Source: Paracoccaceae bacterium (GTDB taxonomy: Bacteria; Pseudomonadota; Alphaproteobacteria; Rhodobacterales; Rhodobacteraceae). From it: a stretch of 38,980 nucleotides of DNA. The DNA lies in NCBI GenBank assembly GCA_023260655.1, contig JALQUU010000025.1, positions 1-38,980 of the forward strand, written 5' to 3'. The notes under the pieces were generated by a model that did no database searches, was not told the DNA's origin, and saw only the letters and a program-made list of their open reading frames with translations. Shown here one piece after another: positions 19,861-35,553 of the stretch. How positions within the stretch are numbered: the first letter of the stretch is position 1; every line of letters begins with the position of its first letter. Position numbers and translations under genes: made by a program.

Positions 19861-20007
19861 TCGTCCCCCAACATCTGCCGATCCCGTTTTGCGGGAACAC
19901 TATACCAATGGTCGGGCAGGGGAAACTGCGATCTGGTCAAAGTGGCATGCGCGGGTTAGGTCTTTGGCAAGTGATTGCCTGCGGGCAGGAAATTGGAGGG
20001 GCGAGCG

Positions 20008-21480
20008 ATGACGCGACCGGTCGAAATCAAGGTTATTGGCACGAACACGGAGGGCCTTGCGGCGCTCGAAGGCCGCGTTGCGGTGGTCGTGGGGGCCGAT
20101 GGCAAGATGGATCCGGTGGCGAAAACGCTGAACCGAGCTTCTAAAGGTGCTTTGGCGCGGTTTGTCGGCTCCGAGGCTTTCGCCAAGATGAAGGCGGGGC
20201 AAGTACAGGCGCTGAGCTGGCCTGCCGGGCTTTCGGTGGATTCGCTCGATGTGGTGAAACTCGAACGCCGCCCAACGCCGGAAGAAGCGCGGAAGGCAGG
20301 CGCGGCACTGGCCAAGGCCAAGGGGCGCGCGGCGCTTCTGATCGCGGCCGGGCCGATGGCGCGGGCGGATGAGCTGGCGGCGGCGCTGGCGCTGCGGGCG
20401 TACGAATTCACCGACCACAAGAGCGAGCGCCCCGAGGGCACGCCCGGTGCGGTGACGCTGATGGTGACGAAACCGGAAGTGGTTTCTGAGGCGCTGGCGC
20501 CGCGGATGGCTGTGGTGGACGGCGTGTTCTGGACCCGCGATCTTGTCTCGGAACCGGCAAACGTGTTGACGACGACGAGTTTTGCCGAACGCCTGAAAGA
20601 GCTTTCGGGCCTTGGCGTGAGTGTGGAAGTGCTGGACGAGCCGGAGTTGGAAAAGCTCGGCATGCGCGCGCTTCTGGCGGTGGGGCAGGGTTCGGCCAGC
20701 CCGTCGAAAGTGGTGGTGATGCAGTGGAACGGCGGCACCAAAGGTGAGGCCCCGCTGGCACTGATCGGCAAGGGGGTCGTGTTCGACACCGGGGGTATCT
20801 CGCTGAAGCCTGCGGTGGGCATGGAAGAAATGACCATGGATATGGGCGGCGCGGGCACGGTTGCGGGCGTGATGAAGGCATTGGCACTGCGCAAGGCCAA
20901 GGCCAATGTTGTGGCTTTGGTGGGGCTTGTGGAAAACATGCCCTCCGGCACCGCGACGCGCCCGGGTGACGTGCTGCGTTCGATGAAGGGCGATACGATC
21001 GAGGTCGTCAACACCGATGCGGAAGGGCGTTTGGTGCTCGCTGATGTGCTCTGGTACGCGCAGGAGCGGTTCGAACCGAAGGGGGTTATCGATCTGGCGA
21101 CTTTGACAGGCGCGATCATCATCGCGCTTGGCCATGACAAAGCGGGGGTTTTCGCCAATGACGACGCCTTTGCGCGGCAGTTCATGAAAGCGGCCGAGCA
21201 TGAGGGCGAAGGCGCGTGGCGGATGCCGTTGGGCGGCTATTACCACGACATCATCAAGAGCCGGATTGCCGATGTGAAGAACTCGGGCGGTCGCCCTGCG
21301 GGCTCGGCGACGGCGGCAGTCTTCCTTGAGCGCTTCATCAAGCCGGGAGTGCCGTGGATCCACCTCGATATCGCGGGCGTCTGCTCGACACCGGGGGAAA
21401 CCACGGTGGCACCGAAAGGCGCGACGGGCTGGGGCGTGCGCGCGCTTGACCGCATGATCGCAGAGACAGAAACCGAGTAA
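20008..21480 (+). CDS. pepA: Leucyl aminopeptidase (M17 family)
   Basis: Cytosolic di-zinc aminopeptidase releasing N-terminal residues in peptide turnover; some homologues also bind DNA. The 490-residue protein has the two M17 metal/catalytic blocks: GKGVVFDTGGISLKP followed by MTMDMGGAG, and NTDAEGRLVLADVLWYA. The C-terminal part has DIAGVCSTPGETTVAPKGATGWGVR (split). ATG 20008 follows GGAGGGGCGA. It is divergent from lptF across 147 bases and is followed 3 bases later by holC, the usual pepA-holC pairing of proteobacteria. Confidence 0.96.
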   Translation: MTRPVEIKVIGTNTEGLAALEGRVAVVVGADGKMDPVAKTLNRASKGALARFVGSEAFAKMKAGQVQALSWPAGLSVDSLDVVKLERRPTPEEARKAGAALAKAKGRAALLIAAGPMARADELAAALALRAYEFTDHKSERPEGTPGAVTLMVTKPEVVSEALAPRMAVVDGVFWTRDLVSEPANVLTTTSFAERLKELSGLGVSVEVLDEPELEKLGMRALLAVGQGSASPSKVVVMQWNGGTKGEAPLALIGKGVVFDTGGISLKPAVGMEEMTMDMGGAGTVAGVMKALALRKAKANVVALVGLVENMPSGTATRPGDVLRSMKGDTIEVVNTDAEGRLVLADVLWYAQERFEPKGVIDLATLTGAIIIALGHDKAGVFANDDAFARQFMKAAEHEGEGAWRMPLGGYYHDIIKSRIADVKNSGGRPAGSATAAVFLERFIKPGVPWIHLDIAGVCSTPGETTVAPKGATGWGVRALDRMIAETETE

Positions 21481-21483
21481 ACC

Positions 21484-21939
21484 ATGGGTGCTGCGCTTTT
21501 CTACCACCTGACCCAAGGCCCTGTGGACCAGACCGCGCCCGCTTTGCTTACGCGGGCGCTGAAACAGGGCTGGCGGGTGGCGGTGCGGGGCACCGAGCGG
21601 CAGCGGCTTGAGTGGCTCGATGAAAAGCTGTGGTTGGGGCCGGAAGAGGAATTCCTGCCGCATGGGTTGGAAGGCGGGCCGCAGGACGTGTTGCAACCGG
21701 TGCTTCTGTGCGAGGGCCAACCCGCAAATGATCCACACTGCCTCATGTGCATTGACGGCGCCGACGCCGCCCCCGAGGAGGTGGTGCGCTACGAGCGGGT
21801 GTGGATCCTCTTTGACGGGCACGACCCCACTGCGGTGGAACGCGCGCGCGGCCAGTGGCGGGCGTTGACCGGAGCGGGCTGCGCCGCGCAATACTGGAGC
21901 GAAGAGAGCGGGCGGTGGGAGAAGAAGGCCGAGGCCTGA
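21484..21939 (+). CDS. holC: DNA polymerase III subunit chi
   Basis: Chi links the clamp loader to single-stranded DNA-binding protein at the replication fork. The 151-residue protein begins GAALFYHLTQGPVDQTAPALLTRALKQGWRVAVRG, the family's typical opening, and contains LDEKLWLGPEEEFLPHG and YERVWILFDGHDPTAVERARGQWRAL (split). It is full length. It begins 3 bases after pepA. A gene-end repeat with a GC hairpin follows its stop within 4 bases. Confidence 0.94.
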   Translation: MGAALFYHLTQGPVDQTAPALLTRALKQGWRVAVRGTERQRLEWLDEKLWLGPEEEFLPHGLEGGPQDVLQPVLLCEGQPANDPHCLMCIDGADAAPEEVVRYERVWILFDGHDPTAVERARGQWRALTGAGCAAQYWSEESGRWEKKAEA

Positions 21940-21942
21940 GAA

Positions 21943-21995
21943 GGGGCTTTGCCCCCTCTGCCTGCGGCATTCACCCCCAGGATATTTTGCAAAGC
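21943..21995 (+). repeat. Gene-end repeat, copy 2 (GC hairpin + CCCCCAGGATATTTT)
   Basis: Directly after the holC stop: a GGGGC-TTT-GCCCC hairpin (21943-21955), then a spacer with CTGCGGCAT, CACCCCCAGGATATTTT (21971-21987) and CAAAGCGA. It shares the 15-base core CCCCCAGGATATTTT and the flanking AAAGCGA with the copy after pdxA, in the same orientation relative to the gene it follows. It may serve as the holC terminator and also borders the EamA gene's ribosome-binding site. Confidence 0.75.
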
Positions 21996-22008
21996 GAGAG
22001 CAGGGGCG

Positions 22009-23172
22009 ATGGAGCGTAAGGACCGGATAGATGCGATCGGTGCGGTGGCTCTGGTGGGCTTTGCTTCGGTGCTCGCCTTCAATCAGGTGGTGGTGCAGCA
22101 TGGGACGGGCGGGTTCCAGCCTGTGTTCATGGCAGGACTCAGGAGCCTTGGCGCGCTGATGGTGCTGGGGCTGTGGATGCGTGTTCGGGGTATTCCGGTT
22201 CGGGTGCCTCAGGGTACGTTGCGGCCGGGGCTTTTGATGGGCGGGCTTTTTGCTTTCGAGTTTCTGGCGCTTTTCTGGGCGCTCGATCATACGACCGTGG
22301 CGCGGGCCTCGATCCTTTTCTATTCGATGCCGGTGATGACGGCACTTTCGGCGCATTTCCTGTTGCCGGGAGAGCGGTTGACGCGGGTGCGGGGCTTGGG
22401 GCTTGGCTTGGCGATGCTCGGTGTGGTGATCGTGCTGGCACGACCGGGGCCGGGGGAAGCTTCTCTGGCGGGGGATCTGGCGGCTCTGGCGGGGGCGGCG
22501 GGGTGGACGGGGATTGCGCTTCTGGTGCGGATATCGCCTTTGGCAAAGGAACCTGCCGAGATGCAGTTGGGGTGGCAACTCTCTGTTTCTACGGTAATTT
22601 TGTTGGGTGTGTCGCCGTTCTTTGGGCCGTTTCTTCGCGAGTTGGAACCTTTGCACATTCTGGGGCTTTGCTATCAGATCGTGGCGGTTGCGAGTTTCGG
22701 GTTTCTCTTCTGGTTCTTTCTGATGAAGCGCTATCCGGCGTCGGGTGTTGCGAGTTTCAGCTTCCTTTCGCCGGTGTTGGCGGTGGTACTGGGCTGGCTC
22801 TTGCTCGGGGAAGAGATGCGCGGAACGACTGTGGTGGCACTCGTGCTGGTGGCGCTCGGGATTACGCCGATTGATCAGGTAGCGTTCGAGCACGTGCGCG
22901 GGCATCCAGCCGCGCAGGAACATGCCGGGGAGCACGTAGAAGGGCGCGTCTGGCAAGGAGAGCCTTTGGGCGAGCGCGCCATCGGCAGGATGGGTGATGA
23001 TTTCCCAGCCAAGGTTTTTCGTGATTTCAACGAGTTCCGCTTCGGCCTTGATGCAATCGTCACAGCTCTCCTTGGTGAAGAAGGTGATGCTGTTCGGGGC
23101 GGCCATGTGCTGAAGAGCGCTGCCCCATGGGCCTCGATGAGGGCGAGGTCAGCGGCTTTGTCGTCGGCGTAG
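22009..23172 (+). CDS. EamA/DMT-superfamily transporter with a frameshifted 3' end
   Basis: Ten-span inner-membrane metabolite exporter of the drug/metabolite transporter group; the substrate is unknown. The N-terminus is MERKDRIDAIGAVALVGFASVLAFNQVVV. EamA repeats end at GTTVVALVLVALGITPID, near base 22877 (~290 residues, the family length). Beyond that the frame runs on for ~97 residues that are merely antisense to the neighbouring DsbA-like gene, so the true protein should stop near 22880. Removing one G from the GG at 22878-22879 would give GITPIDQ followed by TAG. The listed end is the literal stop of the open frame. The start follows AGGGGCG. Confidence 0.8.
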   Translation: MERKDRIDAIGAVALVGFASVLAFNQVVVQHGTGGFQPVFMAGLRSLGALMVLGLWMRVRGIPVRVPQGTLRPGLLMGGLFAFEFLALFWALDHTTVARASILFYSMPVMTALSAHFLLPGERLTRVRGLGLGLAMLGVVIVLARPGPGEASLAGDLAALAGAAGWTGIALLVRISPLAKEPAEMQLGWQLSVSTVILLGVSPFFGPFLRELEPLHILGLCYQIVAVASFGFLFWFFLMKRYPASGVASFSFLSPVLAVVLGWLLLGEEMRGTTVVALVLVALGITPIDQVAFEHVRGHPAAQEHAGEHVEGRVWQGEPLGERAIGRMGDDFPAKVFRDFNEFRFGLDAIVTALLGEEGDAVRGGHVLKSAAPWASMRARSAALSSA

Positions 23173-23354
23173 AGGTCGATCGGGGGCGGGTTTAGTGCCG
23201 CTTCGATCGGTGAGGGATCGGCGAGAAGTGCGGCGCGAAGCTCGGTGCGGAAGGCTTGGCGTTCAGGCTCCGTGAGGGGAAGGCCTGTGCCTGCAGCCCC
23301 GAGCGCCGGAACGCTCAGGGCCGATCCGATGAGGGCGGCTTTGGAGGCCTTCAT
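22875..23354 (-). pseudogene. Broken DsbA-like thioredoxin-fold protein (two compensating frameshifts)
   Basis: The N-terminal part, in frame from ATG 23354, is MKASKAALIGSALSVPAL...LTEPERQAFRTELRAALLADPSPIEAAL. It parallels the start of the adjacent DsbA. The middle is only sensible in another frame: HMAAPNSITFFTKESCDDCIKAEAELVEI...PFYVLPGMFLRGWMPAHVLERY, with a CDDC redox motif and cis-Pro-like region. One base is missing near 23112-23117 (TTCAG where TTCCAG would restore the frame), and one extra G sits near 22878. The outer frame still reaches the native-looking TGA at 22875, giving a nonsense middle of ~78 codons. The start overlaps the dsbA stop (ATGA). It is either a pseudogene or sequencing errors. 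Confidence 0.75.
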
Positions 23355-24100
23355 TTTGCGCGGGCGTCGGCCACCATCTGGGTCATTGCATCGAGCGGCA
23401 TGTAACCGCGCAGGAGGCTGTCATCGAGCACGAAGGTTGGCGTGCCGTTGATCGAGAGGCGGCCCGCGAGCGAGTGGTTCGAGGCGATGACGCCGCTAAC
23501 CTCGGGCGCATCCATGCGTGCGAGGATCGTTTTGGCGTCAAGGCCTTCCTCGTTGGCGATGCGGGTGAAGGCATCGTTACCCATCGAACCTTTGAAGGTG
23601 ATGAGGCGGTCATGGACGCGCTTGTAAGCGTCGGCGCCCGCGACCTGCTGGACGGCGATGGCGAAGCGCGAGGCCAGCACGCTTTCCTCGCCGAGGATCG
23701 GGAATTCCTTCACGATGAAGCGGATCTTGCCATCGGCTTCGATGAGCTGCTGCACCTCGTCATGGGCTTTGCGGCAATAGCCACAGCGGTAGTCGATGAA
23801 TTCGACGAGGGTGATGTCGCCATCGGGATTGCCGCCGACCCAGGAATAACCGTCATCGAAGATGTCCTTGGCGTTGATCTGCACCATATCGGCATCGCCG
23901 CGCGCCTGTGCATCGGCTTGGCGCTTTTCCAGCTCGGCCACGGCTTCCATGATGACCTCGGGGTTTTCCATTAGGTAAGCCCGCACTTCGGCGCGGAAGG
24001 CGCTACGCTCGGCGTCGGACATTTGAGCGATGTCGAAGGCTGTGGCTTGGCTGGCCAGAGCGGTGAGAGCGAGGGCCATGGCTGTGAGGGTGCGGGTCAT
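23351..24100 (-). CDS. DsbA-family thiol:disulfide oxidoreductase (Com1-like)
   Basis: Periplasmic disulfide oxidase/isomerase of 249 residues. It has a signal peptide (MTRTLTAMALALTALASQATAF) and an N-terminal helical arm (MSDAERSAFRAEVRAYLMENPEVIMEAVAELE). The thioredoxin fold carries CGYC (Cys106, Cys109) in FIDYRCGYCRKAHDEV, and the cis-Pro loop is INGTPTFVLDD. I start at the second Met, which begins the signal peptide; the 13 codons upstream lie in the intergenic gap. It sits 16 bases after the M48 peptidase gene and overlaps the start of the broken paralogue, forming a leftward operon for envelope protein quality control. Confidence 0.94.
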   Translation of the reverse strand: MTRTLTAMALALTALASQATAFDIAQMSDAERSAFRAEVRAYLMENPEVIMEAVAELEKRQADAQARGDADMVQINAKDIFDDGYSWVGGNPDGDITLVEFIDYRCGYCRKAHDEVQQLIEADGKIRFIVKEFPILGEESVLASRFAIAVQQVAGADAYKRVHDRLITFKGSMGNDAFTRIANEEGLDAKTILARMDAPEVSGVIASNHSLAGRLSINGTPTFVLDDSLLRGYMPLDAMTQMVADARAK

Positions 24101-24116
24101 GCGGGTCTCCTGCGGG

Positions 24117-25430
24117 TTATTTCTTTTGTTTCTGGGCATGCTCGGCGGCAGAAATCACATCCTGCGCGCGAAGCCAAGCGGAAGAGCCACGGGGCAAAAG
24201 CCCTGCGGCGCGGGTTGCGTTGATGCCGGCGTCTTTCCAGCGGCCTGCGAGGGCGTAGCGTTCGGCGGTGGCAAGGGAGGCTTGGCCCATCTGGCCTGTC
24301 TGGGCATAGGCGGTGCCAAGATCGCGGAGTGCCGTGGGATCGGAGGTGTCTGCGGCGCGGGCGCGTTCGAGGGATTGGATCGCGCCTTTGGGATTGCCGG
24401 CGGCGAGTTGCGCGCGACCGAGGCCTGCGATCACTTGGGTATCCTTGGGCGCAAGGCGGGAGGCCTCCGTGTAGGCGGCGAGCGCGCCTTTAGCATCGCG
24501 GCTTTCGATCAGGATCTGGCCTTTGAGGTCGTGGAGATAGGGATCGGAGGGGCGAAGGCGGATCGCGGCGTCAATGGCTTGGCGGGCTTTGGTGGCGTTC
24601 GACTGGCGGTGGAATGCCACGGCTTGGCGCAAGAGCGTGATGTCATCTTTGCCCAAAGCCTGCCCGGTCTGACGGAGCGTAACGGCGGGGGCGCGCAGGA
24701 ACGCGGCGAGCTTGCCTTGGGCGCGGGCGAACCAGTAATCCGCCGTTAGATCGGGATCGCGGCGGGTTTCGGTGCCGATCTGGGCCATAACGGCATTGAG
24801 GCGATCGCGGCTCAAGGGGTGGGTGCGGCTGTAAGGGTCTTGGCGGGTGGTGGAGAGGAGTTCTTGATCCTTGAAGAGGCCAAGCACGTCGGCATAGCCG
24901 TAGGGATCGACGCCTGCGCGACGCATGTAGGCGAGGCCTGAGGCATCAGCCGCACTTTCCTCGGCGCGGGTATGGCCAAAGAGTACGCGTGCGGCGGATG
25001 ATCTGACACCGAGCGCAAGCCCGCCTGCGGCTTCACCGCCACCCGAGGCAGCGGCGGCGATGGCAAGCGCGGCCCCCAAGCCCGAAATCGTATTGGCGCG
25101 GCGGATATTGTCGAGGCGGCGGGTCATGTGGCCACCTGCGATATGGGCGGCTTCATGGGCGATCACGGATTGCAATTGGGCGGCTGTGGAGAGGCGCAGG
25201 ATGAGGCCCGAGTGGAGAAAGATATGGTCGCGGTCCAGCACAAAGGCGTTCATCTGCGCGTCATGCAGCACGATAATGCGGGAGCGGGAAGAGGATAGCC
25301 CCGCAGCGGCAAGGATGGGGCGGGCGAGTTCGGAGAGCGCGTGTTCGATATCGCCGTCGCGCAGGATCGATTGCGCCTGCGCGGGCAGGGCGGCGAGGAT
25401 CCAGAGAAGGGCGGCGAAGAAGCGGCGCAT
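24117..25430 (-). CDS. M48 family metalloprotease with TPR repeats (BepA/YfgC-like)
   Basis: A secreted zinc protease of 437 residues. The signal peptide is MRRFFAALLWILAALPAQAQ. The catalytic HEAAH is at 92-96 in VIAHEAAHIAGGH, and the third ligand Glu is in RAEESAADASG (157-158). After ~300 the protein is TPR-rich (helical pairs such as PYLHDLKGQILIESRDAKGALAAYTEASRLAPKD, split). BepA homologues help mature or degrade LptD and other outer-membrane proteins, which fits a window that also encodes LptD and SurA. It is divergent from the aminotransferase across 63 bases and is the first gene of the dsbA operon. Confidence 0.92.
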   Translation of the reverse strand: MRRFFAALLWILAALPAQAQSILRDGDIEHALSELARPILAAAGLSSSRSRIIVLHDAQMNAFVLDRDHIFLHSGLILRLSTAAQLQSVIAHEAAHIAGGHMTRRLDNIRRANTISGLGAALAIAAAASGGGEAAGGLALGVRSSAARVLFGHTRAEESAADASGLAYMRRAGVDPYGYADVLGLFKDQELLSTTRQDPYSRTHPLSRDRLNAVMAQIGTETRRDPDLTADYWFARAQGKLAAFLRAPAVTLRQTGQALGKDDITLLRQAVAFHRQSNATKARQAIDAAIRLRPSDPYLHDLKGQILIESRDAKGALAAYTEASRLAPKDTQVIAGLGRAQLAAGNPKGAIQSLERARAADTSDPTALRDLGTAYAQTGQMGQASLATAERYALAGRWKDAGINATRAAGLLPRGSSAWLRAQDVISAAEHAQKQKK

Positions 25431-35149: not shown

Positions 35150-35553
35150 TTGGCAAACTCAACGAATATCCAAGTGGATATAGGGAGGCGACCGCTGTTC
35201 GGAGTTGTTCTGTGGGCGGACCCGGTGGATCGTAAAGCAGTGATCTGGTGCGAGGATCATGGCGACCTAGCGTATTTCAAGGGGAGCCTCCACGAAGGCG
35301 GTTTTCCGAGATCGATTCCGGTGATCTGGTGCAATTCGAGTTGCAGCGTGAGCGAAGCGTGCGTTTGGCGCTAAATCCGCGTCTTGTGGCCGAGGGGCGA
35401 TTCCCGAGCCTTGCCGACAGTCTCTACAAGCCTGCGCCAGTTGCGGCCACCGTTACAGCCAAGTCTGATCTTACGGGGCAAGTGGTGTCTCTCGCGGCAG
35501 CGATCCGCAACCGCATTTCCTCTGCGAGCAGCCGGCTTCCGATAGCCGGATAA
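35150..35553 (+). pseudogene. Small conserved Roseobacter-type gene, frameshifted
   Basis: The first frame (TTG 35150) reads IQVDIGRRPLFGVVLWADP and VDRKAVIWCEDHGDLAYFKG. After ~35300 the sense moves to the +2 frame: FSEIDSGDLVQFELQRERSV and RLALNPRLVAEGRFPSLADS, ending at TAA 35551-35553. One base is lacking around 35298-35304 (the GGCGG/TTTTCC region). The joined product would be ~134 residues. It resembles small Rhodobacteraceae proteins with a WCEDHGDLAY motif and no function known to me. The start is uncertain; GTG 35174 is an alternative. It is divergent from the XRE pseudogene. Confidence 0.55.

Follow-up and report, generated by a model that had tools for sequence, protein, structure and literature searches.

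The DNA analyzed here (the window) is a stretch of 38,980 nucleotides (nt) from a draft genome of a Paracoccaceae bacterium, in which two genes converge on a common 3′ end at positions 22851 to 22900. On the plus strand lies an EamA/DMT-type transporter gene, whose homology part of 290 codons (22009 to 22878; homologues cover residues 1 to 290) belongs to the Pfam family EamA (PF00892), with a score of 111.9 bits against a gathering cut-off of 28.2. Its frame runs on for 97 codons and a stop (22879 to 23172), antisense to a small DsbA-like gene on the minus strand. The latter consists of an N-terminal half (23104 to 23354), which was recognized by alignment with homologues and starts with what resembles a signal peptide by eye, and a C-terminal half (22879 to 23097), which aligns with 30 distinct homologues and carries both the CDDC motif and a Pro-Phe-Tyr-Val loop in a frame of its own. 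The start of the DsbA-like gene overlaps by four bases (23351 to 23354) the stop of an intact upstream gene on the same strand (23351 to 24139), which encodes a DsbA/ScsC-type protein of 262 amino acids (aa). This neighbor matches Pfam DSBA, Thioredoxin_4, and ScsC_N above the cut-off and is 77% identical to its counterpart in the sister genome G003. The order of the flanking genes, which we take from their sequences to encode a leucyl aminopeptidase, the DNA polymerase chi subunit, and an M48-type peptidase, is the same in the genus-mate G002, and the transporter is absent from the corresponding place there. The chi-subunit-like gene directly adjoins the DsbA-like gene in G002; in the window and at the G003 locus (L003), the transporter stands beside it.

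The small CxxC protein is split across two minus-strand frames, the N-terminal half being readable to about 23103 and the C-terminal half from about 23097. Frameshift-tolerant alignment to the G002 protein put the change of frame at 23098, with a best placement of about 23095 to 23103. The open reading frame that a gene caller would give (22875 to 23354, 159 aa) keeps the N-terminal frame throughout and lacks a CxxC, and a Pfam search with its scrambled stretch (22878 to 23114) gave no match at an E value of 1. CDDC lies in the second frame, which opens at 23106. This second frame, as an extension of the CDDC half, runs open to 19900 and could itself be called as a gene of 1068 aa (19900 to 23106, minus strand). 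An earlier, sequence-only reading of this DNA had proposed that the frames are scrambled within an outer frame that stays open, and this is what we found. That reading had put a missing base near 23115 and nonsense in the middle of the 159-aa product; a break does exist, but 23098 is its better position, and the nonsense without CDDC makes up the C-terminal half rather than the middle.

Both genes run through their common 3′ end without a stop. The transporter frame stays open to 23172, 97 codons beyond residue 290, where the homologues examined have a stop, so that the stop is missing as reported; the run-on gave no Pfam match. The CDDC frame continues for 992 codons beyond a Tyr codon at 22879 to 22881. 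Between a minus-strand TGA (complement of 22875 to 22877) and a plus-strand TAG (22880 to 22882) lies a pair of G residues at 22878 and 22879. L003, the one close relative in which the genes overlap in this way, served as the reference for length at this end, and the window proved to be a net 16 nt shorter, with 20 nt fewer in one part and 4 nt more in another. This net difference led us to drop the idea of a simple loss of 20 nt with respect to the sister.

Homologues of both genes were surveyed at 118 loci, comprising the 41 loci of one search and the best-scoring loci of five others, a sample in which divergent members are underrepresented. For the transporter, matches below 45% identity or short of residue 280 were dropped, the window's own locus was left out, and homologues were counted as distinct according to the final 200 nt of the matching stretch. 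The 62 loci retained (53 distinct) end 1 to 22 aa beyond residue 290, with a median of 6; no distinct homologue (0/53) runs on for more than 22 aa, and none for 50 aa or more. The long tail, which the earlier reading had suggested looking for in relatives, was thus shared by none. For the DsbA-like protein, after removal of matches short of residue 160, 40 loci (30 distinct) were retained, all ending 2 to 22 residues past the last conserved Tyr; 30 of the 30 distinct homologues read across the place of the break in a single frame, and 29 have a CxxC. The homologue L027 (1498 to 2001) has no CxxC, with a short alignment gap there, and the remainder of it is kept. Both genes are intact and convergent, with a 23-bp overlap, in L003 and in L052 (UBA8790), apparently the same locus, and they lie 104 nt apart in L059 (UBA3069), L029, and L093, which also appear to be one locus. 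The intact state of both genes is therefore clear from relatives. Wherever the two halves of the window gene cover a position that hardly varies in the family alignment (A3), they carry the conserved residue. Since both halves hold these residues and both stops are absent where homologues stop, the pattern is more than chance.

Codon positions were then compared with those of two relatives. In the N-terminal part, differences from L003 peak at the third positions of the N-terminal frame (43/81 versus 24/78 and 26/81), and in the C-terminal part at those of the C-terminal frame (42/71 versus 24/71 and 18/71). The same holds against G002, with 44/80 third positions versus 29/80 and 32/80 in the N-terminal part and 38/70 versus 22/70 and 20/70 in the C-terminal part. 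The transporter body likewise has an excess at third positions (118/257 versus 64/256 and 33/257). Its run-on has none at its own third positions, which differ at 24/71 sites from L003 and at 22/70 from G002; over 22885 to 23097, the 24/71 of the tail frame compare with 42/71 at third positions of the DsbA-like frame in L003. When the tail was searched with tblastn, its weak matches in L003 and L004 lay on the strand opposite to the conserved DsbA-like gene, and they were read as the mirror of that gene. L003 has stops in all three antisense frames of this gene, and L004 has one antisense frame open almost throughout. From the third-position excess and the conserved residues in both halves, we reasoned that the two pieces formed one working gene until very recently. 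Judged by these substitutions, both genes were under selection until very recently, or are so still. No relaxed constraint was found in the DsbA-like gene besides the frame break, although a very young pseudogene would look alike.

The sequence-only reading had seen the G pair as holding an extra G and had held that one edit mending two genes argues strongly for an error or a very recent mutation. The arithmetic is right, as TGA and TAG flank the pair and the loss of one G stops both genes; within 25 nt of the site, it is the only one-base change that does so. Within 50 nt, however, one deletion outcome and three insertion outcomes stop both genes, so that an extra G is one of several one-base readings. 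One of the insertion outcomes brings both ends into the range of homologues (3 and 5 residues), whereas deletion of the G leaves 0 residues after the Tyr (at least 2 in homologues) and 0 after residue 290 (at least 1 in homologues), making both proteins shorter than every homologue examined. Moreover, of 1284 doubly open 25-nt regions taken at random from the window, 80 acquire both stops through the deletion of one base and 322 through some one-base change; in 50-nt regions, the figures are 235/1500 and 709/1500. Because such repairs are frequent in random regions and insertion alternatives exist, the one-edit argument carries little weight. These counts weaken the argument and leave the choice between error and mutation unchanged: the changes do look recent or artefactual, with no further decay seen, but not by reason of a single edit.

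Concerning the family of the small protein, none of 32 members (the 30 homologues and the two window pieces) matched Pfam DSBA (PF01323) at an E value of 0.01, and it was therefore not filed as DSBA. At the same threshold, ten members matched Glrx-like, ten Thioredoxin_2, and four ScsC_N (PF18312). The protein has the CxxC followed by a conserved Pro loop of a thioredoxin-like oxidoreductase. A profile search of the PDB gave as the best match 4xvw, "DsbA-like protein" (E value of 4.9e-10). Other matches were 6mhh, "Metal resistance protein" (E value of 4.7e-7), 4gxz, "Suppression of copper sensitivity protein" (E value of 6.2e-6), a protein disulfide oxidoreductase, and thioredoxins. A structural model of the sister protein was poor (built from 2 sequences, pLDDT of 52); Foldseek ranked thioredoxins at the top, with 0 matches at an E value of 0.001 or less. 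On these profile matches, the protein is classed as DsbA/ScsC-like, not DSBA. It is probably periplasmic, and its likely role would be to exchange thiols and disulfides there, alongside the intact DsbA.

The source genome is a draft assembly in 265 contigs, with contigs down to 500 bp, an estimated completeness of 77.53%, and contamination of 4.35%; these fragmentation and completeness figures point to a metagenome bin. Frame breaks elsewhere were sought by comparing 41 draft pieces totaling 512,843 bases, the window among them, with 80 G002 pieces (1.6 Mb). Placing G002 proteins on the draft (261 genes, 243,390 nt) yielded 11 break candidates, and placing draft proteins on G002 (340 genes, 301,413 nt) yielded 3. 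A break was counted as strong if it came without an internal stop and if the 15 residues on each side included at least 6 identical ones, with 10 or more on one side. After frameshift-tolerant alignment, by this criterion set post hoc and with one control relative, 5 of 11 candidates in the draft and 0 of 3 in G002 were strong. Two of the five lie in the window, namely, 23098 in the DsbA-like gene and a one-base break that disrupts a small conserved gene near 35310 (35195 to 35550; 117 aa in G002, no Pfam match). The others lie in L163 near 3276 (contig C186 of the draft, G000), where an FlgI gene has a one-base frame change flanked by 15/15 and 14/15 identical residues, in L165 near 4473, and in L167 near 180; outside the window, which was chosen for its frameshift, the comparison is thus 3 versus 0. 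Candidates in L131, L132, and L177 were set aside for an internal stop and those in L163 near 4342, L164, and L171 for weaker flanks. In the reverse direction, L230 has an internal stop, L220 fails the flank identity, and L222 passes numerically but falls on a tRNA-Leu gene, like its L165 query, and is not a broken protein gene. A higher rate of frame breaks in the draft is suggestive only.

The intact copies in relatives suggest that the locus holds no new biology but either a mistake in the sequence or a very recent mutation. The explanation we favor over a fresh real lesion, and think probable, is a consensus error in the draft, in view of the fragmented assembly, the intact sister locus, the ends of homologues, the codon-position pattern, the conserved residues, and the other frame breaks. 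Under this explanation, an EamA transporter gene and a gene for a small CxxC thioredoxin-like protein would be an unremarkable convergent pair whose 3′ ends abut or overlap; one small length error would lie within the DsbA-like gene near 23098 and another at the common 3′ end near 22878, both introduced during sequencing or assembly and not carried by the cells. Several points stand against it. The net difference of 16 nt exceeds a typical consensus error, although at this divergence it may be ordinary. By eye, the breaks do not lie within long homopolymers. The excess of breaks is small (5 versus 0) under a post hoc criterion and a single control relative.

Less probable, but a serious contender, is a real and very recent lesion, by which the DsbA-like gene became a pseudogene and a short indel at the common end removed the transporter stop, leaving a meaningless 97-aa tail. 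The DsbA-like gene seems dispensable: genus-mate G001 has no match to its C-terminal half or to the neighboring DsbA at an E value of 0.001, and any match to the sister protein was found in 146 of 394 family genomes, many of the matches listed covering only the N-terminal stretch common to the DsbA paralogue. The adjoining intact paralogue, the net 16-nt departure from the sister, and the homologue L027 without a CxxC fit a lesion as well. Nevertheless, neither half shows other decay, two lesions would fall in one gene of about 480 nt with no others seen, and the draft has frame breaks elsewhere, including that in FlgI. A consensus joining alleles of two populations, with the breaks as joins, would suit the contamination estimate and the fragmentation, but we regard it as highly improbable, given that divergence from the sister is alike on either side of the break in the DsbA-like gene (93/240 and 84/213 sites). 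It is scarcely credible that the changes are real and fixed and that the transporter has gained, as a nascent protein extension, a C-terminal tail of 97 aa encoded antisense to a thioredoxin-like gene. Programmed frameshifting combined with a genuine transporter tail, for which every frame concerned is open, has a negligible chance and was rejected, as all 30 distinct DsbA-like homologues keep one frame, none of the 53 transporters has the tail, substitutions do not follow the tail frame, and no slippery heptamer was noticed by eye at the break.

The locus matters mainly as a caution to annotators. A gene caller would accept the 159-aa product as sound, half of it nonsense; the transporter would receive a false tail; and the CDDC frame could be called as an antisense open reading frame. 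If real, the lesion would be a small example of one change at a common end hitting two convergent genes together.

Compared with known systems, the transporter resembles EamA (DMT) proteins in that two of its stretches match PF00892 well above the cut-off, and it differs from them in a frame that runs on for 97 aa versus 1 to 22 aa. The small protein shares with ScsC/DsbA-type thiol oxidoreductases the CxxC, the ScsC_N match in 4 of 32 members, and a gene that adjoins a DsbA/ScsC gene; at 168 aa in L003 and 159 aa in L004, it is shorter than its 262-aa neighbor, and it lacks the PF01323 match. Finally, isolated frame breaks in otherwise conserved genes are reminiscent of the gene-fragmenting indel errors of draft assemblies. 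Such errors in long-read assemblies are the topic of PMC12007338, whereas the genome here is a draft of many contigs.
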